Part shown: one piece after another, positions 54,496-64,000 of the stretch
Layout: the number at the start of each line of letters is the position of its first letter
How positions within the stretch are numbered: the stretch's first letter is position 1
Assembly: GCA_030682135.1 (NCBI GenBank)
Contig: JAUXQT010000008.1
Location: 1-64,000 of the forward strand
Length of the DNA: 64,000 bases
Reading direction: 5' to 3'
Source: Nitrospirota bacterium
GTDB lineage: Bacteria > Nitrospirota > Nitrospiria > Nitrospirales > Nitrospiraceae
Position numbers and translations under genes: made by a program
Notes under the pieces: model-generated
What the model saw: the letters and a program-made list of their open reading frames with translations, nothing else
Databases searched by the model: none
What the model was told of the DNA's origin: nothing

Positions 54496-54512
54496 GCCCT
54501 CCACATTGTGAC

Positions 54513-54740
54513 TCCTGGGTCAGGGAAGAGGGTGCAAGTCCCTCGCGGTCCCGCCGCTGTAAATGGGGACGAAACCCGTAAATGCCACTGGGAATACAGT
54601 GATCGGTGATGAGTGACGAGTGATGTGTTACGAGCGGTTGCAAGCTGCTCTACCTATCACCCCTAACGCATCACACATCACTCAAACCTGGGAAGGTACG
54701 GGGAGTAGGATGAACCATAAGCCAGAAGACCTCCCAGGAT
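54513..54740 (+). ncRNA. Cobalamin riboswitch 1 (upstream of btuFCD)
   Basis: A closing stem P1 pairs TCCTGGG (54513-54519) with CCCAGGA (54734-54740). Inside are the conserved blocks GGGTGCAAGTCCCTCGCGGTCCCGC split across the core, CCGCTGTAAATGGGGA, AAATGCCACTGG, TGGGAAGG, AGTAGGATGAA and the B12 box GCCAGAAGACCTCCC (usual CAGGAGACC, here CAGAAGACC). Adenosyl- or other cobalamin binding would repress the uptake genes downstream. The peripheral arm between GCCACTGG and TGGGAAGG is filled by a repeat element. Confidence 0.9.
54600..54684. repeat. GTGATCGGTGATGAG-type inverted repeat inside riboswitch 1
   Basis: This 85-bp piece begins GTGATCGGTGATGAGTGA, the same words as the left arm at 38538. 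Its inner arms pair perfectly over 11 bp (GAGTGATGTGT at 54619-54629 with ACACATCACTC at 54674-54684). It sits in the variable peripheral region of the aptamer. Confidence 0.8.
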
Positions 54741-54833
54741 AGTTGACCGACGTTCCCTCGTGGGCTGGGGAATTGGCGAGGATGAGTTGCGGGAGCAATC
54801 CTCAGGGTCTGTCAGGCCTTGGGGATTTTTTAT

Positions 54834-55838
54834 TTGCGCACCGCTGCATGGCATGGCCGATGGTGGTCCGGACTGTTGACGAGTATGGGAATACTCGTTC
54901 TGGCGATGGCCGCCTTCGCGAATGCAGATGATGGGACGTCGGGCATGGCACGTCGACAGCAGGGCATCCTCACCGGCATGCCGTTTATGGCGAACGTCTC
55001 GGCACGCGCCTATGTCGATGATGCGGGACGCCGCATGTATTTTGCCAAGCCTCCCGCACGAATCGTCTCGCTGGCGCCCAGCATCACGGAAATGCTGTTT
55101 GCCATGGAGGCGGGGGAGCAGCTCGTCGGTGTCACGGACTTTTGCGACTATCCACCAGAAGCTCTGACAAAGCCTAAAGTCGGCTACTCTAATCCGAACT
55201 TGGAAACGTTGGTGTCACTCCAACCTGATCTGGTGGTGGCGCCCAACGATTTCCTCAAGCCCGATATCATCGTCAAACTTGAACAGCTGAAGATCCCCGT
55301 CTTTATCTTGGCAGACAAGAACGTCGAGGGGATTTTCGTTCACATTCAGACGCTCGGACGAATTGTCGGACATTCGGCGAAGGCCGATACCGTCGCCATG
55401 CAGCTTCGGCATCAGGTGGCTGCGATCCAGCAGCGAGTTCGGGGAATGGATCCAGTGCGGATGCTCTATGTGTTGAACAGCCAGCCTCTGATCACCGTCG
55501 GGCCTGGCAGCTTCATCGATCAATTGATTGGAATGGCCGGAGGCGCCAATGTCGCGGCCAAGAGCGTCACGCCCTATCCGCGGCTCAGCATGGAGTCTGT
55601 GCTTCAAGAGGACCCGGAAGTGTTGGTGTTTCCAGTCGGCAAAGCGGAAGGCATCTCAGAGAGCGAGCAGCAGACCTGGCGGCAATGGTCGACGATGACG
55701 GCGGTGAAGCGCAGCAGGCTGCACCAGATTTCCGCCGATTGGCTGAACCGGCCCGGTCCTCGAATTGCGCAGGGGCTGGAAGCCCTTGCCGCCATTTTGC
55801 ATCCGGACCGTCTGTCGGATGGTCGAGTGGAACGGTAA
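54834..55838 (+). CDS. btuF: Vitamin B12 ABC transporter substrate-binding protein
   Basis: About 334 aa with a Sec signal peptide ending AFANA. The periplasmic binding domain (RIVSLAPSITEMLFAMEAGEQLVGVTDFCDYPPEALTKPKVGYSNPNLETLVSLQPDLVVA ) is the BtuF/TroA type with a long central helix. I prefer TTG 54834 as start since GGGGA lies eight bases upstream; TTG 54819 and ATG 54885 are alternatives. It follows the cobalamin riboswitch and precedes btuC and btuD, so cobalamin (or cobinamide) is the expected ligand. Confidence 0.9.
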   Translation: MRTAAWHGRWWSGLLTSMGILVLAMAAFANADDGTSGMARRQQGILTGMPFMANVSARAYVDDAGRRMYFAKPPARIVSLAPSITEMLFAMEAGEQLVGVTDFCDYPPEALTKPKVGYSNPNLETLVSLQPDLVVAPNDFLKPDIIVKLEQLKIPVFILADKNVEGIFVHIQTLGRIVGHSAKADTVAMQLRHQVAAIQQRVRGMDPVRMLYVLNSQPLITVGPGSFIDQLIGMAGGANVAAKSVTPYPRLSMESVLQEDPEVLVFPVGKAEGISESEQQTWRQWSTMTAVKRSRLHQISADWLNRPGPRIAQGLEALAAILHPDRLSDGRVER

Positions 55839-55840
55839 CG

Positions 55841-56926
55841 ATGCAACCTATGACAGATGCGATGTCATCATGGGCGCAGGCCGGCGCGGTGCTGACCGTC
55901 CAGCGATGGGTGGTGGTCATCGGTGGACTGCTGCTGGCGAGCCTGGCTGTTTTGGTGTTGTGTCTCCAATTCGGCGCCACGTCGGTCGGCATGGGAACGG
56001 TGGCAACGGCGATCATGCGCCTGCTGCGCGGGGACGAGGCCGGTTCTCCAGGACTGGCCACGTCCGAAATTATCATGGTGCAGATTCGTTTCCCGCGAGT
56101 GCTCATGGGGTTTCTCGTGGGGGCCAGTCTGGCGGCGGTCGGTGTCACGCTTCAAGCCCTGCTCAGAAATCCGTTAGCCGACCCCTATGTGTTGGGTGTG
56201 TCGAGCGGAGCCGCGCTGGGTGTTTCGGTGGCGATTCTGTTTGGCATCGGCTCCACCTTCATGCTGCTGCCGGTCCTCCCGCTCTTTGGATTTGCCGGAG
56301 GCCTGTTGGCGCTGGTGGTGATCTATCGGCTGGCGCAGTCCAACGGTCGGTTGCCGGTTCATAGCCTGTTGCTGGCTGGCGTGATTTTGAATGCCATTCT
56401 GACTGCCTTCATTATGTTCATCACCTCGATCATGGAGCCGAATCGTTCGGCGGGGCTGATGGCCTGGTTGATGGGGTCGTTGACTGCACCGGGGTATCCG
56501 GCATTGGGCGTCTTTTTGATGTACGTCGTGTTGGTGCTTGGGGTCCTCATGCACAAGGCCCAGTCACTCAATGTGCTCACGTTGGGCGAAGAAACAGCTC
56601 GCTCATTGGGCGTAGAGACCGAGGGCGTCAAGAAACAACTCTTTGTGCTCACGGCACTCCTGACCGGTGCGATTGTGTCGGTGAGTGGCATGATCGGGTT
56701 CGTCGGGATGGTCGTGCCTCATGCGGTGCGCCTGCTCATCGGATCGGATCATCGGCTGTTGCTGCCGGCGTCGGCGTTAGTCGGAGGCATGTTTCTCTCC
56801 CTGGCCGATACGATCGCCAGGACGATGATGTCTCCCGCAGAGATACCGGTGGGCATTGTGACGGCGCTCGCGGGGGGACCGTTCTTTCTCTATCTCCTGC
56901 TCTGGCGAAAAGATCGGATGTTGTGA
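55841..56926 (+). CDS. btuC: Vitamin B12 ABC transporter permease
   Basis: A 361-aa FecCD/BtuC-family permease with about ten helices. Family marks are IRFPRVLMGFLVGASLAAVGVTLQALLRNPLADPYVLGVSSGAALG, LTLGEETARSLGV and GFVGMVVPHAVRLLIGSDHRLLLPASALVGG. It starts at ATG 55841, two bases after the btuF stop. It forms the membrane channel of BtuC2D2F. Confidence 0.93.
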   Translation: MQPMTDAMSSWAQAGAVLTVQRWVVVIGGLLLASLAVLVLCLQFGATSVGMGTVATAIMRLLRGDEAGSPGLATSEIIMVQIRFPRVLMGFLVGASLAAVGVTLQALLRNPLADPYVLGVSSGAALGVSVAILFGIGSTFMLLPVLPLFGFAGGLLALVVIYRLAQSNGRLPVHSLLLAGVILNAILTAFIMFITSIMEPNRSAGLMAWLMGSLTAPGYPALGVFLMYVVLVLGVLMHKAQSLNVLTLGEETARSLGVETEGVKKQLFVLTALLTGAIVSVSGMIGFVGMVVPHAVRLLIGSDHRLLLPASALVGGMFLSLADTIARTMMSPAEIPVGIVTALAGGPFFLYLLLWRKDRML

Positions 56927-56927
56927 G

Positions 56928-57803
56928 ATGACGACCGGCCAGATTGACGTCACGCATTCCGGGTTGTCTGCGGAGAGTCCTGCCATCGAAGTCCTTGGAC
57001 TATCGTTTCAATACCGTACGTCGGAAGGGCGAGGGAGAATGTGGACCCTCGATCATCTCTCCTTCCACGTCGATACCGGCGAGATCCTGGGCATTGTGGG
57101 ACCCAACGGATCCGGAAAGACCTCGCTATTAAAAGTGCTGTCCGGTCTTTTGCCGGCAGGCGAAGGCGATGTACGTCTGGGCGGTCTCTCCTTGCGGAAA
57201 CGGAGCCAAACCGATATCGCCCGTGTGGTCGCGGTCGTGCCGCAGGAATATGCACAGGTATTCCCGTTTACGGTGGCCGAGACCGTCTTGATGGGACGGT
57301 TTCCCCATCGGACGACTCGTTGGTGGAGTCTGGGTATCGGAGATGAGACGGCGAAGGATCTTTCCTGCGCCCACCAAGCGATGGTCGATACCGATGTGCT
57401 CTCGCTCGCCGACCGATTGGTCTCGGACTTATCCGGCGGAGAACGGCAACGTGTCATGATCGCGCGAGCGCTGGCTCAAGAGCCGAAGATCCTATTGCTC
57501 GACGAACCGACGGCCTTTCTTGACATCAATCACCAGATCGAGATTTGTTCGCTCATCGCGAGACTCAGGACAGAGCGACGGCTGACGGTGGTGTTGGTGT
57601 CGCACGATCTGAATGTCGCGAGTCAGTATTGCGACCGGGTCTTGATGCTCAAAGACGGCGGGCTGTGCCGTATCGGCTCGCCGGAGGAGACCATTCGCCC
57701 TGACGTGCTTCGGATGGTGTACGGATGTGAGGTGGTCGTCGACGCCCATCCCCAAACGGGCAGGCCACGTGTGACGATGCCGATGAATGCGGTTGTACAG
57801 TAG
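56928..57803 (+). CDS. btuD: Vitamin B12 ABC transporter ATP-binding protein
   Basis: A 291-aa ABC ATPase. Walker A is GPNGSGKTS, the Q-loop VVPQEY, the signature LSGGERQRVMIARAL, Walker B ILLLDEPTAFLD, and the switch histidine VSHDLN. The N-terminal 25 residues and a C-terminal tail of about 30 residues are slightly longer than the minimal domain. One base separates it from btuC. It powers cobalamin import. Confidence 0.94.
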   Translation: MTTGQIDVTHSGLSAESPAIEVLGLSFQYRTSEGRGRMWTLDHLSFHVDTGEILGIVGPNGSGKTSLLKVLSGLLPAGEGDVRLGGLSLRKRSQTDIARVVAVVPQEYAQVFPFTVAETVLMGRFPHRTTRWWSLGIGDETAKDLSCAHQAMVDTDVLSLADRLVSDLSGGERQRVMIARALAQEPKILLLDEPTAFLDINHQIEICSLIARLRTERRLTVVLVSHDLNVASQYCDRVLMLKDGGLCRIGSPEETIRPDVLRMVYGCEVVVDAHPQTGRPRVTMPMNAVVQ

Positions 57804-57889
57804 AAGACAGCCAGGGTCCTGTCCCCGGTCCGGCTGTGCGTAACAAGGGGGGCGATTCATTTTTCATTTAAGAAAGGGCGTTTTGGAGA

Positions 57890-58125
57890 AGCGACGCGGG
57901 TGACGGGGAAGATGGTGCAAATCCATCACGGTGCCGCCACTGTAAGCGGGGAGTAATTCTGCATCGAGCCACTGTCTGGGGACGGTGATCAGTGATCAGT
58001 GAAGTGTGATAAGTCGGGAAAAATAAACGGTTCCCTCACTCATCACCCAGCACCTATTACTATTCACTGTTCAAGATGGGAAGGCGCAGAAACACGACGA
58101 TCCGCAAGTCAGGAGACCCATTCCG
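57890..58125 (+). ncRNA. Cobalamin riboswitch 2 (upstream of btuB operon)
   Basis: The core blocks are ACGGGGAA, GATGGTGCAAATCCATC, CGGTGCCGCCACTGTAAGCG, GAGCCACTGTC, ATGGGAAGGCGC, CACGACGAT and the B12 box GCAAGTCAGGAGACCC, in the canonical order. The outer stem pairs GGGT (57898-57901) with ACCC (58116-58119). No strong promoter is visible between btuD and this element; transcription may start weakly in the AT-rich stretch near 57860 or read through. The peripheral arm again carries a repeat. Confidence 0.92.
57985..58070. repeat. GTGATCAGTGATCAG-type inverted repeat inside riboswitch 2
   Basis: An 86-bp piece starting GTGATCAGTGATCAGTGA, related to the elements at 38538 and 54600. The outer arms pair as CAGTGAA (57997-58003) with TTCACTG (58063-58069) and continue imperfectly with G-T pairs. 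It lies between GCCACTG and GGGAAGG, the same place as the element in riboswitch 1. Confidence 0.75.
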
Positions 58126-58167
58126 CAGTTGATTCGACTCAACCCTTCGAGCACAAGGGAGATCGTT

Positions 58168-60174
58168 ATGATGTGGTTTCTTCGTTTTAGTCGTGTGTGG
58201 TGGTGTCTGTTGCCCCTGTTGGCCCTGAGCCCTCCCGTCTATGCTGCCCCGGATATCGAAGTGGCGTCCGCCGATCAAATGGACACCGTTGAGGCGCGGG
58301 AAGTCGTCGTCAGTGCGACCAAAACCCCTGTTCCTATCACTCAACTCACCAGCGCGGTCGAGATCATTACTGAGGAAGATCTGAAGCGGCGGCAGATCAA
58401 GATGGTCTCCGAAGCGCTCCGTCTCAGTCAGGGATTGACGGTGTTCTCGAACGGTGGGCCCGGTACGAGCACGAGCGTGCGCATCCGAGGCAGCAACTCC
58501 GATCAGGTGCTGGTGCTGATTGATGGCGCCATCATGAACAGTGCCACGACGGGCAGTTTCGATTTCGCGAATCTCACCACCGACAACATCGAACGCATTG
58601 AAATTCTCCGTGGCGCCCAAAGCATGCTGTGGGGCGCGGACGCGATGGGTGGCGTGATTAACATCACCACCAAGAGGGGTACCGGCGCTCCCTCGGCTAA
58701 CGCGTTTTTTGAGTACGGATCGTTTTCGTCCATCCGGGAAGGCGGCCAAGTCTCCGGCAAAACAGGAATCGTAGACTACAGCGCGGCGATCTCACGTTGG
58801 GATTATACGGGATTTTCAGCCGCCAACTATCGCCGTGGTGCTTCGGAGCGAGATGGCTTTCACAACTGGCAAACCTCAGCGCGCCTGGGTGTGGCCCTTC
58901 CTCACGAGGGGCGGCTCGACTTCAATTTTCGTCTCTTGCAAGGCAGGGTGAACATCGATAACGGTTTTTCTCCCGGATTCGATACCCTGGGAGCGTTCAA
59001 CACCAGCCAGCAGTTTGTGTACAGCGCTGCCTATACGCAGCCGATTACGACCTGGTGGAACCAAGTCCTCACGGTGTCACGCCAAACAGAGGATGCTGAG
59101 TCTTTTTCCGGAACGACCCAGCGCAATCTGCAAACTGGTGTCGTCTCTACTCCATTTCTGTACCGATCGCAGATCAATACGTTGTCGAATCGCATTGAGT
59201 GGCAACACAACATCCAGATTGCCAAGCCCTTACTCCTCAGTGCCGGGTATCAGTTTCGTGAGCAGCAAGGGCAAAGTCGAGATCTTTTGACAAACAATCT
59301 CGATATCCCGACCAAGATCGTTTCCAGCAATGCCGGATTTGCTCAGGCCCAGCTGAATCTCTGGGAGCGAGTCTTTGCGACGGCAGGCGTGCGATATGAC
59401 GATTACAACGTTTTCGGTGGCGCCACCACGTACCGGACTACCGCAGGCTACCTCCATCAGGAGACCGGGACCAAGATCCGGAGCAGTTATGCAACCGGGT
59501 TTCGCGCGCCGAGCGTCAATCAATTGTATTTTCCGGATTTTGGGAAATCAGATCTGAAGCCGGAGCGAAGTCAGAGTATGGATATCGGGGTGGACCAGTA
59601 TCTGCTCGACAATCGGCTGACCCTGAGCGGGGGATATTTCTGGAGCCGTTACCGTGACATGATTGTGTCTCAGCAGAGCGTAGATGTCTGTGGAAGCTCG
59701 TTCGGCTTCGCCAATTTTTGTGCGCAGAATATAGGCTTGGTGAGCACGAAGGGATGGGAGGCGAGTGTGAAGTATGCCGTGGTCAGGGATGTGCCCTTGA
59801 TCAAGAGCTTGGATGTGCAGGCTCAATATACCAATACGCTGACCAGGAACCTGGTGCAGCAGCCTGGTAACCGAGCGCCTCGTATGCCGGTCGATCAATG
59901 GAGCATGGTCATCAGTTATCAGCCGATCGATCCGGTTAGGGTGAACCTCGAAGGCCGCTATGTGGGGTCACGCTTCAACGATGTCAATAATCAGGAGAAG
60001 ATGCGTGCGTTCGATGTGTGGAATCTCTCCGCCAGCTATGATGTGACGAATCGTGTGCAAACGTACGTGCGCGCCGACAATATCTTCAACGAGAAGTATG
60101 AAGAGATTCAGTTTTACGGTACTCCTGTGCGATCGATCTTTGTTGGGCTGAGAGTGAATTACGATGCGAAGTAG
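58168..60174 (+). CDS. btuB: TonB-dependent vitamin B12 receptor
   Basis: A 668-aa outer-membrane receptor. The signal peptide ends SPPVYA, and the TonB box lies in REVVVSATKTP. The plug domain has ITEEDLKRRQIKMVSEALRLSQGLTVFSNG, SVRIRGSNSDQVLVLIDGAIM and IEILRGAQSMLWGADAMGGVINITTK. The barrel ends in the expected aromatic-rich strand with a C-terminal YDAK. It is under riboswitch 2, which supports cobalamin as substrate. Tandem ATGs at 58168 and 58171 follow AAGGGAG. Confidence 0.93.
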   Translation: MMWFLRFSRVWWCLLPLLALSPPVYAAPDIEVASADQMDTVEAREVVVSATKTPVPITQLTSAVEIITEEDLKRRQIKMVSEALRLSQGLTVFSNGGPGTSTSVRIRGSNSDQVLVLIDGAIMNSATTGSFDFANLTTDNIERIEILRGAQSMLWGADAMGGVINITTKRGTGAPSANAFFEYGSFSSIREGGQVSGKTGIVDYSAAISRWDYTGFSAANYRRGASERDGFHNWQTSARLGVALPHEGRLDFNFRLLQGRVNIDNGFSPGFDTLGAFNTSQQFVYSAAYTQPITTWWNQVLTVSRQTEDAESFSGTTQRNLQTGVVSTPFLYRSQINTLSNRIEWQHNIQIAKPLLLSAGYQFREQQGQSRDLLTNNLDIPTKIVSSNAGFAQAQLNLWERVFATAGVRYDDYNVFGGATTYRTTAGYLHQETGTKIRSSYATGFRAPSVNQLYFPDFGKSDLKPERSQSMDIGVDQYLLDNRLTLSGGYFWSRYRDMIVSQQSVDVCGSSFGFANFCAQNIGLVSTKGWEASVKYAVVRDVPLIKSLDVQAQYTNTLTRNLVQQPGNRAPRMPVDQWSMVISYQPIDPVRVNLEGRYVGSRFNDVNNQEKMRAFDVWNLSASYDVTNRVQTYVRADNIFNEKYEEIQFYGTPVRSIFVGLRVNYDAK

Positions 60175-60183
60175 CAGATTCGT

Positions 60184-61584
60184 ATGATCATTCCACGATT
60201 GGTCATCGCAGGCACCTCCAGCGGTGTCGGCAAGACGACGGTGACTCTGGCAATCCTGGCGGCCCTGAAAGCTCGGGGCCGCCAGGTACAGCCCTTCAAG
60301 GCTGGGCCTGACTTCATCGACCCGAGTCATCACACTGCCGCCACCGGCCGACCGTCTCGGAATCTGGATGGCTGGCTGTTGGGGAAGTCTGTGAATCGCG
60401 AGATCTTTGCGCGAGCCGCTGTCGACGCGGATATCTGTATTGTCGAAGGGATGATGGGGCTGTTCGACGGGAGCTCGCCGGTAAACGAAATCGGTAGTAC
60501 GGCTGAATTGGCGAAACAAGTGGATGCGCCGGTGTTGCTCGTCATTGATGGGAGCGCTATGGCCCGCTCTGCTGCGGCCATGGTGTCGGGCTATGCGAAA
60601 TTCGATCCGGCCTTGCGAGTCGCGGCAGTCCTATTCAATCGAGTCGGCAGCGACAGTCATTACCAGTTACTGAAGGCTGCGGTCGAGCAAGAAACCGATG
60701 TGGTCGCGGTCGGGTATCTACGGCCGGATCCGGCGGTGACGATTGCCGATCGCCATCTTGGGCTTGTGACGGCGATGGAGCAGGGGGCAGGCGAGCTCTA
60801 CGTCCGGCTTGCGAAGGCTGCGGAAGAGACCGTTGATTTGGGTCGCATCGAGGCATTGGCCCGTTCAAGTGGTGAGTGGACGGTAGCAGTTCTTCCGCCT
60901 GTCGCGAGGAGTCAGGGGTGCACGGTTCGAATCGGGGTGGCCCAGGATCCGGCCTTTTGCTTTTACTATCCGGACAACCTTGAATTGTTGAAAGCGGAGG
61001 GGGCGGAGTTGGTGCCGTTTTCCCCCATGAACGATCGGCTGCTGCCCGATGTGGATATGTTGTATCTTGGCGGTGGCTATCCTGAATTGCATGGCGAGGT
61101 GCTGAGTCAGAATGTCTCAATGAGAAAGGCCATTCGTCAGTTTGCAGACCAGGGTGGGGCCATTTATGCGGAATGCGGGGGGATGATGTATCTCACGCAA
61201 GCCATTCGCAACTTCGAGGGCATGTCGCATGAGATGGTCGGGCTGTTTCCGGCTGAAGCGGTAATGAGGAGGCCAGGGCTGACCTTGGGGTACAGGACGA
61301 TGGAACTCTCGCACGACTGCATCCTTGGTGCGGCTGGCACCACCGCACGAGGACATGAGTTTCATTACTCCACGTTGGTTCCGAGAGGATCGCTCGACTA
61401 TGCCTGCACGCTCCGGGATGCGGGAGGCTTATCGAAGGGGCAGGATGGAGTTTCCATCGGCAATGTGGTGGGGCTCTACACGCATTTGCACTTTGCCAGC
61501 CAGCCGAAGATTGCGAAATCTTTGGTGTCGTCTGGGCGGCGGACCTCTCCACGGTTGTCGGTGAGTCCAGGAGGTGTGATGTGA
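60184..61584 (+). CDS. cbiA: Cobyrinate a,c-diamide synthase
   Basis: A 466-aa enzyme. The N-terminal ATP-grasp-like synthetase has a P-loop in IAGTSSGVGKTTVTLAIL and FKAGPDFIDPSHHTAATGRPSRNLDGWLL. The C-terminal class I glutaminase has YLGGGYPELH and its nucleophilic Cys in YAECGGMMYL (~residue 331), and the catalytic His in GHEFHYSTL. It amidates the a and c carboxylates of cobyrinic (CbiA) or hydrogenobyrinic (CobB) acid. The anaerobic and aerobic types cannot be told apart here. It starts nine bases after btuB. Confidence 0.94.
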   Translation: MIIPRLVIAGTSSGVGKTTVTLAILAALKARGRQVQPFKAGPDFIDPSHHTAATGRPSRNLDGWLLGKSVNREIFARAAVDADICIVEGMMGLFDGSSPVNEIGSTAELAKQVDAPVLLVIDGSAMARSAAAMVSGYAKFDPALRVAAVLFNRVGSDSHYQLLKAAVEQETDVVAVGYLRPDPAVTIADRHLGLVTAMEQGAGELYVRLAKAAEETVDLGRIEALARSSGEWTVAVLPPVARSQGCTVRIGVAQDPAFCFYYPDNLELLKAEGAELVPFSPMNDRLLPDVDMLYLGGGYPELHGEVLSQNVSMRKAIRQFADQGGAIYAECGGMMYLTQAIRNFEGMSHEMVGLFPAEAVMRRPGLTLGYRTMELSHDCILGAAGTTARGHEFHYSTLVPRGSLDYACTLRDAGGLSKGQDGVSIGNVVGLYTHLHFASQPKIAKSLVSSGRRTSPRLSVSPGGVM

Positions 61585-62180
61585 CGGAGCAGGACGAGCA
61601 CAAAGCGAAGATGGAACGGCTCAAGGCGTCAGTGGATCGGCGCATTGAGGCGGCACAAGAAGAGCGAGGCCTGCTGATCGTCTATACAGGTGCTGGCAAG
61701 GGGAAGACCACCGCAGCGCTGGGTATGGCGTTACGATGTCTCGGCCATGGCATGAAGGTGGCCGTGGTTCAATTCATCAAGGGGGCGATCGATACGGCGG
61801 AGGAGCGAGCCCTCAAGTCGTTTGGCGATCGTGTGACTTTTCTTCGCATGGGGGAAGGGTACACGTGGGAAACGCAAGACCGAGAGCGGGACACGAAGTT
61901 CGCCCGAGAGGCCTGGACCGTGGTCTGCGGGTTTTTGCGCGATCCCTCCTACTCGATGGTCATTCTGGATGAATTCAATATCGCGTTGCAGCATGAGTAC
62001 GTTCCCTTGGATGAGGTGTTGTCGGGATTGCGATCGCGGCCGCTGATGCAGCATGTGGTGATCACCGGGCGCGGCGCTAAAGAAGCGTTGATCGAGGAGG
62101 CCGATCTGGTCACGGAGATGAAGCAGATCAAACATCCCTTTCGCAAAGGCATCAAGGCGCAGCCGGGGGTGGAGTTTTGA
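61581..62180 (+). CDS. cobO: Cob(I)yrinic acid a,c-diamide adenosyltransferase (CobO type)
   Basis: A 199-aa P-loop enzyme: LLIVYTGAGKGKTTAALGMALRCLGHGMKVAVVQFIKG, VILDEFNIALQHEYV and VVITGRGAKEALIEEADLVTEM. The family attaches the 5'-deoxyadenosyl group to the cobalt of corrinoids. GTG start at 61581 with GGAGG just upstream, inside the end of cbiA. A second, unrelated adenosyltransferase (PduO) lies 900 bp downstream. Confidence 0.95.
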   Translation: MTEQDEHKAKMERLKASVDRRIEAAQEERGLLIVYTGAGKGKTTAALGMALRCLGHGMKVAVVQFIKGAIDTAEERALKSFGDRVTFLRMGEGYTWETQDRERDTKFAREAWTVVCGFLRDPSYSMVILDEFNIALQHEYVPLDEVLSGLRSRPLMQHVVITGRGAKEALIEEADLVTEMKQIKHPFRKGIKAQPGVEF

Positions 62181-62188
62181 GAGGGCCG

Positions 62189-62392
62189 GTGACGAAGACC
62201 TGCGAACATTGCCACGACCGGTTCGAATGCCGGGGCTATCAATGCTGGTGTGGGACTCTCGGCATTACGGAGCAGCAGATGGACTGGATCGCCGCGCGGT
62301 ATAAAGAATGTCTCTGCCCTGTCTGTTTGGGGAAAGTTGCCGCCGGTGAGTTGGGACCTCAATCCACGACTCACGCCGAGCGGGCGACATAA
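62189..62392 (+). CDS. Cysteine-rich CWC-family small protein
   Basis: A 67-aa protein: TKTCEHCHDRFECRGYQCWCGTLGITEQQMDWIAARYKECLCPVCLGKV. It has the CxxC...CWC...CLCPxC pattern of the cysteine-rich CWC family, with eight cysteines suited to bind one or two metal ions. GTG 62189 is preferred because GAGAGGG stands before it; TTG 62177 overlaps cobO. It occupies an operon position between CobO and BluB. No function is known to me. A metal-handling or redox role in corrinoid metabolism is a guess from context. Confidence 0.78.
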   Translation: MTKTCEHCHDRFECRGYQCWCGTLGITEQQMDWIAARYKECLCPVCLGKVAAGELGPQSTTHAERAT

Positions 62393-62408: not shown

Positions 62409-63185
62409 ATGTCGGGTGATGGCCGGTTTTCAGACGTGGAGCGGGACGCGGTGTATCGGGCGATTTTCGAGCGGCGCGACGTCCGTCGGAATTTCTTGCC
62501 GGCGCCGATCCCGGACTCAGTCTTGACGCGTGTCTTGACGGCCGCGCACCATGCCGGATCGGTCGGTTTCATGCAGCCATGGGATTTTGTGGTGATCCGC
62601 GATCCCACCGTGAAGGGCCTGGTCAAAGACTTGTTTCGCGGGGCGAACGCCGAGGCTGCCATGAAGTATCGAGGGAAGCGAGCCGCGCTCTATCGAAGTC
62701 TCAAGCTGGAAGGCATCGAAGAAGCGCCGGTCAATATCGGTGTAACCTGTAGCCGTCAGCGTGGCGGCTCTCATGTGCTGGGCCGTTCTACAGTGCGCGA
62801 TACGGATTTGTATAGCACTTGCTGTGCCATCCAAAACCTTTGGCTGGCCGCACGAGCGGAAGGCATCGGGGTTGGCTGGGTCAGCATTTTGGACCATGGA
62901 GCCTTGAAGTTGGTACTCGGTATCCCAAGGCCGGTCAAAGTGTTGGCCTATCTGTGCCTGGGGTATGTCGACGACTTTGCGGTGCAGCCTGATTTGGAGT
63001 TGGCAGGGTGGCGCAAGAGGATTCCGGTTGATGAGCTTATTCACTATGAATCGTGGGGAAAGAAATTGCAGGGCGACAGGAGGACGGGCGATGCGCATCA
63101 CGAAGGTGTACACGAGAACGGGAGACGCGGGAAAAACCAGGTTGGCCGGAGGTCAGCAGGTGTGGAAGGACAGTCTTCGAGTTGA
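62409..63185 (+). CDS. bluB: 5,6-dimethylbenzimidazole synthase (BluB)
   Basis: A 258-aa nitroreductase-fold flavoenzyme that fragments FMN with O2 to give the lower ligand of B12. BluB hallmarks are ERRDVRRNFLPAPIP, AAHHAGSVGFMQPWDFVVI, APVNIGVTCSRQRGGSHVLGRSTVRDTDLYSTCCAIQNLWLAARAEGIGVGWVSI and LAYLCLGYVDDF. Oxygen is required, so an aerobic or microaerobic lifestyle is implied. The C-terminal ~32 residues overlap pduO in another frame and look like low-conservation extension. Confidence 0.94.
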   Translation: MSGDGRFSDVERDAVYRAIFERRDVRRNFLPAPIPDSVLTRVLTAAHHAGSVGFMQPWDFVVIRDPTVKGLVKDLFRGANAEAAMKYRGKRAALYRSLKLEGIEEAPVNIGVTCSRQRGGSHVLGRSTVRDTDLYSTCCAIQNLWLAARAEGIGVGWVSILDHGALKLVLGIPRPVKVLAYLCLGYVDDFAVQPDLELAGWRKRIPVDELIHYESWGKKLQGDRRTGDAHHEGVHENGRRGKNQVGRRSAGVEGQSSS

Positions 63186-63678
63186 GGCCTATGGCACCCT
63201 CGATGAGTTGAATGCGGTAATCGGGGTCGTGCGGGTCATGAATGCCGAGATGGTTGGGATGTATGAGCAGGCGGAGCCACTCGAAGAAGATCTCCGCTGG
63301 GTTCAGAACAAACTATTCGACCTCGGTGGTATTCTCGCGACGGCTCCTGGGCAAGAGTTTAAGGATATGCCACAGGTGACGGCAAAAGATGTGACGAAGC
63401 TGGAGAAGATGATCGATCGTTGCCAGAAAGATCTGGCTCCGCTCAAGGAATTCATTTTGCCAGGTGGAGGGAAGGTGTCGGGGTTTTTGCATCAGGCGAG
63501 GACCGTGTGCCGCCGGGCAGAGCGGATCTGCGTACATCTCTCGCGGGAAGAGCCGATCGATGCCGTGCATATCAAGTTCGTGAATCGGCTGAGCGATGCG
63601 CTGTTTGTCCTGGCACGTTGGGCCGCGAAGACGCAGGGAGAGCCGGAGTTTCTCTGGCAACGTGATACAGGGAAATAA
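63091..63678 (+). CDS. pduO: PduO-type ATP:cob(I)alamin adenosyltransferase
   Basis: A 195-aa trimeric-type adenosyltransferase: MRITKVYTRTGDAGKTRLAGGQQVWKDSLRVEAYGTLDELNAVIG, then LFDLGGILAT, FILPGGGKVSGFLHQARTVCRRAER and FVNRLSDALFVLARW, the complete family signature with the ATP-binding RTGDxGxT. GGAGG at 63079-63083 lies inside bluB, and the gene overlaps the bluB 3' end by 95 bp. It makes coenzyme B12 and is unrelated in fold to CobO. Confidence 0.95.
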   Translation: MRITKVYTRTGDAGKTRLAGGQQVWKDSLRVEAYGTLDELNAVIGVVRVMNAEMVGMYEQAEPLEEDLRWVQNKLFDLGGILATAPGQEFKDMPQVTAKDVTKLEKMIDRCQKDLAPLKEFILPGGGKVSGFLHQARTVCRRAERICVHLSREEPIDAVHIKFVNRLSDALFVLARWAAKTQGEPEFLWQRDTGK

Positions 63679-63695: not shown

Positions 63696-64000
63696 GTGAG
63701 AAGAACGCCATGGGGAAAGTCGCGGCTCATTCTTGTGTTGGGCGGGGCGGCGTCCGGCAAGAGCCAGGTGGCACTCGACCTGGCAGGCCGGAAAGGGCCG
63801 AGGGCTTTTGTGGCGACGGGTCAGGCGTTGGATCGGGAGATGAATGTCCGGATCGAGCGGCATCGGTCCACGCGCCCGCCCGATTGGGAGACGGCGGAAG
63901 TGCCGACTGATCTCGCGCAATGGTTTATTGATAAAGGTGCAACTTATCAGCTAATTGTGCTTGACTGTCTCACGTTATGGTTGAGCAATATGAAGGGGCT
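63696..64000 (+). CDS. cobU: Adenosylcobinamide kinase / guanylyltransferase (5' part)
   Basis: The gene runs past the right edge; 101 residues are visible. They show the P-loop ILVLGGAASGKSQVAL, then FVATGQALDREMNVRIERHRSTRPPDWETAEVPTDLA and VLDCLTLWLSNM, the CobU/CobP signature. It phosphorylates adenosylcobinamide and adds GMP in nucleotide-loop assembly. GTG start at 63696 with GAGGGG upstream. It follows pduO by 17 bp, within which one arm of the GTGATCGGTGA repeat occurs. Confidence 0.92.
   Translation, partial: MRRTPWGKSRLILVLGGAASGKSQVALDLAGRKGPRAFVATGQALDREMNVRIERHRSTRPPDWETAEVPTDLAQWFIDKGATYQLIVLDCLTLWLSNMKG

Follow-up and report, generated by a model that had tools for sequence, protein, structure and literature searches.

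The window, by which we mean the whole stretch of 64,000 nucleotides analysed here, ends in a vitamin B12 cluster. All genes of the cluster lie on the plus strand, in the order btuF, btuC, btuD, btuB, cbiA, cobO, a gene for a cysteine-rich CWC protein, bluB, pduO, and cobU. The features are:

54499–54752, plus strand, cobalamin riboswitch (RF00174, 86.3 bits), ahead of btuF-btuC-btuD
54819–55838, plus strand, btuF-like gene for a periplasmic corrinoid-binding protein (Peripla_BP_2)
55685–56926, plus strand, btuC-like permease gene (FecCD), the true start probably later than the ORF start
56928–57803, plus strand, btuD-like ABC ATPase gene
57856–58139, plus strand, cobalamin riboswitch (RF00174, 88.0 bits), ahead of btuB-cbiA-cobO-CWC-bluB-pduO-cobU
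58129–60174, plus strand, btuB-like TonB-dependent receptor gene (best NCBIfam model TonB-B12, below its cutoff), the true start probably inside the ORF
60184–61584, plus strand, cbiA/cobB, cobyrinate a,c-diamide synthase
61581–62180, plus strand, cobO, corrinoid adenosyltransferase (equivalog TIGR00708)
62177–62392, plus strand, CWC gene (Cys_rich_CWC, PF14375), 71 residues, TTG start, TAA stop at 62390–62392
62409–63185, plus strand, bluB, 5,6-dimethylbenzimidazole synthase (equivalog TIGR02476)
63091–63678, plus strand, pduO-type cobalamin adenosyltransferase gene (PF01923)
63696–64000, plus strand, cobU, running past the window end

The two riboswitches (54499–54752 and 57856–58139) separate an import unit of the cluster from a receptor-salvage unit; the whole genome contains two cobalamin riboswitches, both inside this cluster. 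Beyond the window, the contig carries cobT, a cobS region, cbiB, a gene for a cobD-type aminotransferase, and cobQ. The CWC gene lies downstream of the second riboswitch in the same co-directional gene run, and a single transcription unit is predicted.

The CWC gene probably starts at TTG 62177. An alternative GTG at 62189, four codons inside, would give a protein of 67 residues, but the TTG is preferred because it yields M-R-G-P where orthologues conserve M/L-R-G-P, some of them with ATG. With this start, the gene overlaps cobO by 4 bp, the TTGA being shared between the CWC start and the cobO stop. The first-pass annotation had placed an eight-cysteine protein between cobO and bluB. The PF14375 match of the protein and the equivalog models for its neighbors bear this out, although the 67-residue length given there, from the GTG, is probably four codons short.

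The protein scores 31.4 bits against PF14375 (cutoff 24), covering model positions 1–49 of 50, and its eight cysteines follow the pattern C-x2-C-x5-C-x4-C-W-C-x19-C-L-C-x2-C. Both marks of this family, which is defined by sequence only, are present in the window protein: a full-length score and the eight-cysteine CWC motif. An NCBIfam search of the protein matched no model. Orthologues at 90–96% identity have a pS of 0.28–0.42 and a pN of 0.02–0.06, and the gene is under purifying selection (pN/pS about 0.07–0.2). All eight cysteines are invariant in an alignment of 140 homologues; the rows were collected with a DNA pattern that demands five of them and a regular expression that demands all eight. 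Because pN is far below pS among the orthologues and all eight cysteines are invariant, the gene is not a chance ORF.

An AlphaFold2 model made with the 140 homologues (pLDDT 79.9, pTM 0.64) predicts strands at residues 5–8 and 15–18 and helices at residues 24–27, 32–41, and 48–56. In a zinc-finger-like layout, the first CxxC is positioned at the strand turn, and the final helix begins with the last CxxC. Foldseek finds no significant match for the model (best E 2.7), VIA-align finds none with a Z of 2 or more, and sequence searches of the PDB return chance matches only (kinetochore, zinc-finger, and ribosomal proteins). The cysteines may be structural, with the protein acting as a two-zinc adaptor that holds together or regulates the B12 enzymes or the importer and leaves cobalt untouched. 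We regard such an adaptor as possible but rather unlikely. The predicted β-knuckle and helix, with eight possible ligands, resemble two-zinc fingers (PHD and treble clef), PHD fingers dominate the insignificant Foldseek list, and CWC occurs fused to DUF5522 and to a 4HBT domain. However, every Foldseek match has an E above 2, so that the likeness comes with no significant structural match; no single partner gene is always adjacent to CWC, and the fusion partners are not B12 enzymes.

A profile search across 118 Nitrospirales genomes, incomplete MAGs included, finds CWC in 98. One spurious match (G108; 28 residues, E 0.009) was discarded, and three true members missed by the Pfam search alone (G135, G193, and G195) were recovered through the alignment profile and synteny. 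CWC is present in 88 of the 89 genomes with CobT, and among those without CobT, 10 have it and 19 lack it (Fisher p about 9e-14, relatedness ignored). The association with CbiB is similar: CWC is encoded in 89/89 CbiB-positive genomes, and of the CbiB-negative genomes 9 encode it and 20 do not (p about 5e-16, relatedness ignored). PduO predicts CWC far less well (p 0.007, relatedness ignored), 15 genomes having PduO and no CWC. The joint absences of CWC and cobT/cbiB are scattered over several Nitrospirales genera. Most CobT-positive Nitrospirota genomes outside Nitrospirales have no PF14375 match, indicating that CWC is not a general B12 gene.

The position of CWC within the B12 operons varies. 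In the Nitrospiraceae, the family of the window genome, the order is cobO-CWC-bluB, or cobO-CWC-pduO when bluB is missing. A link specific to bluB was rejected, as only 59/118 Nitrospirales genomes pass the BluB cutoff. In a second family of Nitrospirales (most of L032–L039), the order is cobS-CWC-cbiB. Two loci (L037 and L068) have two copies per operon, filling both the cobO-side and the cobS-side positions, and in one genome (G149, locus L043), one copy is flanked by btuB and pduO and a second by cobQ and cobU. Further orders are cbiA-CWC-pduO and, in G195 and G155, btuB-CWC-pduO with neither cobO nor cbiA nearby. Since CWC occupies such varied slots, its linkage to B12 genes is more than one inherited adjacency. 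In addition, four CWC clusters (L184, L186, L187, and L198) show no cobO, indicating that CWC does not need both adenosyltransferases nearby. Three Nitrospiraceae loci (L042, L044, and L046) encode an additional, more divergent CWC with longer spacing, which in L044 has a FecCD-type importer and a TonB receptor in its vicinity.

A DNA pattern scan with fixed spacing finds at least 119 loci; the pattern excludes tryptophan at position 37 and hence leaves out most Nitrospiraceae. Most of the listed loci are from Bacteroidota, and Gammaproteobacteria, Acidobacteria, and a single Planctomycetia MAG are also represented; 115 of the 119 among the matches listed encode a recognisable CWC protein. Many PF14375 members have CxC, the tryptophan being absent. 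Among the 111 non-Nitrospirota loci in the matches listed, 25 place CWC no more than 5 kb from a gene for a B12 enzyme, DUF71, or a BtuB-type receptor. The count rises to 36 with upstream cobalamin riboswitches and to 44 with DUF5074 lipoproteins, and 67 loci show no B12 marker in the stretch covered. These marker counts are lower bounds, the pieces being at most 8 kb long with CWC often near an edge. In a FastTree tree of the 140 CWC rows, the B12 label is clustered (13 changes versus a shuffled mean of about 47), the columns being too few for dating gains and losses.

Most loci outside Nitrospirales among the matches listed have no B12 neighbor in the stretch seen, as would be expected if CWC were a passenger gene in B12 operons with no B12 role. 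This is very improbable, given that CWC fills several B12-operon slots and positions directly behind riboswitches in several phyla and that it is absent jointly with cobT/cbiB.

The riboswitches are concentrated at CWC loci. By Rfam models, 28 of the 119 loci among the matches listed (0.89 Mb) contain cobalamin riboswitches, 29 in all; 20 CWC-bearing whole genomes, together about 87.5 Mb, contain 72. The densities are about 33 per Mb at the listed loci and 0.8 per Mb in the background, which is if anything too high, because these genomes were chosen for a riboswitch near CWC, plus the window's own. In 26 listed loci, the riboswitch is upstream on the CWC strand; L058, with the riboswitch on the opposite strand, and L094, with the riboswitch downstream, are not counted as CWC control. 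No other gene separates CWC from the upstream riboswitch in six listed loci (L054, L059, L062, L066, L148, and L097, the score of the last being barely above threshold), where the distance is 27 to 224 bases. In L054 and L059, riboswitch and CWC are followed by a gene for a conserved protein of about 578 residues without a Pfam match. The genomes of L054, L059, and L148 (Dysgonomonas and a similar one) have 12–15 cobalamin riboswitches each.

The immediate neighbors of CWC outside Nitrospirota (150 genes, selected by position and strand only) are, among the matches listed, most often genes for a TonB receptor (12), Peripla_BP_2 (11), MarC (9), FolB (8), and DUF5074 (7), followed by 4HBT (6), CobU (5), DUF71 (5), MetE (3), and PduO (2). 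For the TonB neighbors, the vitamin B12 receptor is the top-ranked NCBIfam model, and siderophore models match too. The order metE-CWC-4HBT, found in L069 and, behind a riboswitch, in L120, would be compatible with metal handling under B12 shortage, that is, with sequestration or supply of zinc or cobalt, for example for zinc-dependent MetE. The CxC and CxxC motifs of the protein also fit, as such motifs occur in metallothioneins. But the main context of CWC is import and salvage, not metE, and salvage-only genomes do not need cobalt insertion, which makes metal handling distinctly improbable.

The strong association with CbiB and CobT in Nitrospirales raises the question of whether CWC works with the proteins of late cobamide assembly (CbiB, CobU, CobS, and CobT), for example in remodelling incomplete corrinoids. 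The adjacencies cobS-CWC-cbiB and CWC-cobU agree with this, and CWC is absent where only import and PduO remain. Six genomes (G108, G161, G165, G197, G206, and G223) have BtuB-type import genes and PduO and lack CWC both at the locus and in the profile search, indicating that adenosylation of imported cobamide does not require CWC. Furthermore, CWC adjoins DUF71 in several Bacteroidota. The DUF71-B12 subgroup was linked to btuCDF and cbiB through genome context and proposed for pseudo-B12 salvage (PMC3541065); like CWC, it is a B12-salvage gene of uncertain chemistry, but it is a PP-loop ATPase unrelated to CWC in sequence. Against late assembly, three genomes carry CWC without CobT and CbiB: in G236 and G252, cbiA, CWC, and pduO are grouped, and in G125, CWC adjoins pduO. 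Outside Nitrospirota, 41/43 CWC-positive genomes have PduO and 16/43 have CobS, indicating that CWC is not confined to cobamide assembly, although PduO discriminates weakly because it is nearly universal in B12 users. The 27/43 genomes without CobS, which include the riboswitch-btuB-CWC-marC loci, led us to reject nucleotide-loop assembly as the sole role, and a partnership with late assembly is on balance improbable.

The published record contains one related case. In Sulfurospirillum, SMUL_1567 is a cysteine-rich CWC protein encoded between cbiA and the precorrin-2 dehydrogenase gene sirC in the corrinoid cluster, and it is tabulated among the co-induced corrinoid genes (PMC7755780). Beyond this gene table, the open-access literature yielded nothing on a link between CWC and B12 and no further paper that names the family, and open-access papers that treat the B12 loci of Bacteroides make no mention of a CWC protein. 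The first-pass annotation knew of no described function, and we likewise found none for PF14375 in the open-access literature.

The genes around CWC, the placement of riboswitches, and its occurrence together with B12 genes across several phyla all point to a role of CWC in B12 metabolism, which we consider very probable on this genomic evidence. The role in corrinoid metabolism that the first-pass annotation had proposed from operon position is well supported. The neighborhood survey it called for is clearly positive across Nitrospirales, Bacteroidota, and Gammaproteobacteria, and extends to the Planctomycetia MAG and the Campylobacterota case (PMC7755780).

Since the common denominator of the CWC contexts is corrinoid import and use, CWC likely acts between import and adenosylation. 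This step is favored by the three genomes that keep CWC beside pduO without CobT and CbiB (G125, G236, and G252), by the order pduO-CWC in Parabeggiatoa, and by the 43 CWC-positive genomes of other phyla, of which 27 have no CobS and 41 have PduO. We propose that CWC assists corrinoid salvage as a cytosolic accessory factor, with its expression under cobalamin-riboswitch control. The eight invariant cysteines would form two metal sites, for two zinc or for iron-sulphur, within a small fold of knuckle and helix. More speculatively, CWC might act before adenosylation on corrinoid that is imported or newly amidated, using thiolate or electron chemistry to remove the upper ligand, to help lower cobalt to cob(II)/cob(I), or both, and might then hand the corrinoid to CobO or PduO. 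As a whole, this salvage-factor mechanism, in which CWC prepares corrinoid for CobO/PduO, is a tentative proposal. The six Nitrospirales genomes with BtuB-type import genes and PduO but no CWC argue against a strict requirement. The 67 of 111 listed non-Nitrospirota loci with no B12 marker in the stretch covered, and the adjacency of CWC to folB, 4HBT, and metE, also count against the mechanism.

Flavin-type cob(II) reductases and the corrin reductase PduS (PMC2982820) share the proposed step, delivery of reduced corrinoid to an adenosyltransferase. CWC is smaller than the redox enzyme PduS, however, has no flavin domain, and shows no detectable similarity; a search of Pfam and NCBIfam for a flavin or Fe-S redox domain of the known reductases finds PF14375 only. 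Reduction of cob(II) by CWC, which the first-pass annotation had suggested, as an alternative to metal binding, for the benefit of both adenosyltransferases, is possible but a guess. That the B12-linked CWC is the missing small electron or thiolate carrier, preparing the cobalt of corrinoids for ATP:corrinoid adenosyltransferases where bacteria have no known cob(II) reductase serving these enzymes, is unlikely. To our knowledge, cob(II) reduction and upper-ligand removal before adenosylation are unclear in most bacteria, and CWC is a small, purifiable, and assayable candidate for either. A widespread uncharacterised family thereby gains a testable role, as a cobalamin-regulon protein of Nitrospirales and many Bacteroidota.

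No plasmid matches were found for CWC. Several further arrangements recur at the loci. CWC-DUF5522 fusions, with a cysteine-rich CRHC motif, are encoded in L066 (3262–3648), L079 (377–727), L104 (7040–7438), L152 (4682–5044), and L070 (6661–6993); in L066, a cobalamin riboswitch directly precedes the fusion gene, and cobT and cobS come after it. A CWC-4HBT thioesterase fusion is encoded in L108 (6359–6958), and 4HBT adjoins CWC in six listed loci, with metE upstream in L120 and L069; the loci with 4HBT include L062, L069, L115, L120, and L145. In Chitinophagaceae-like genomes, several btuB-CWC operons (L053, L064, L086, and others) end with a gene for a MarC-family membrane protein. Finally, folB, encoding dihydroneopterin aldolase, adjoins CWC in eight listed loci (for example, L087, 897–1286), a second, unexplained association.
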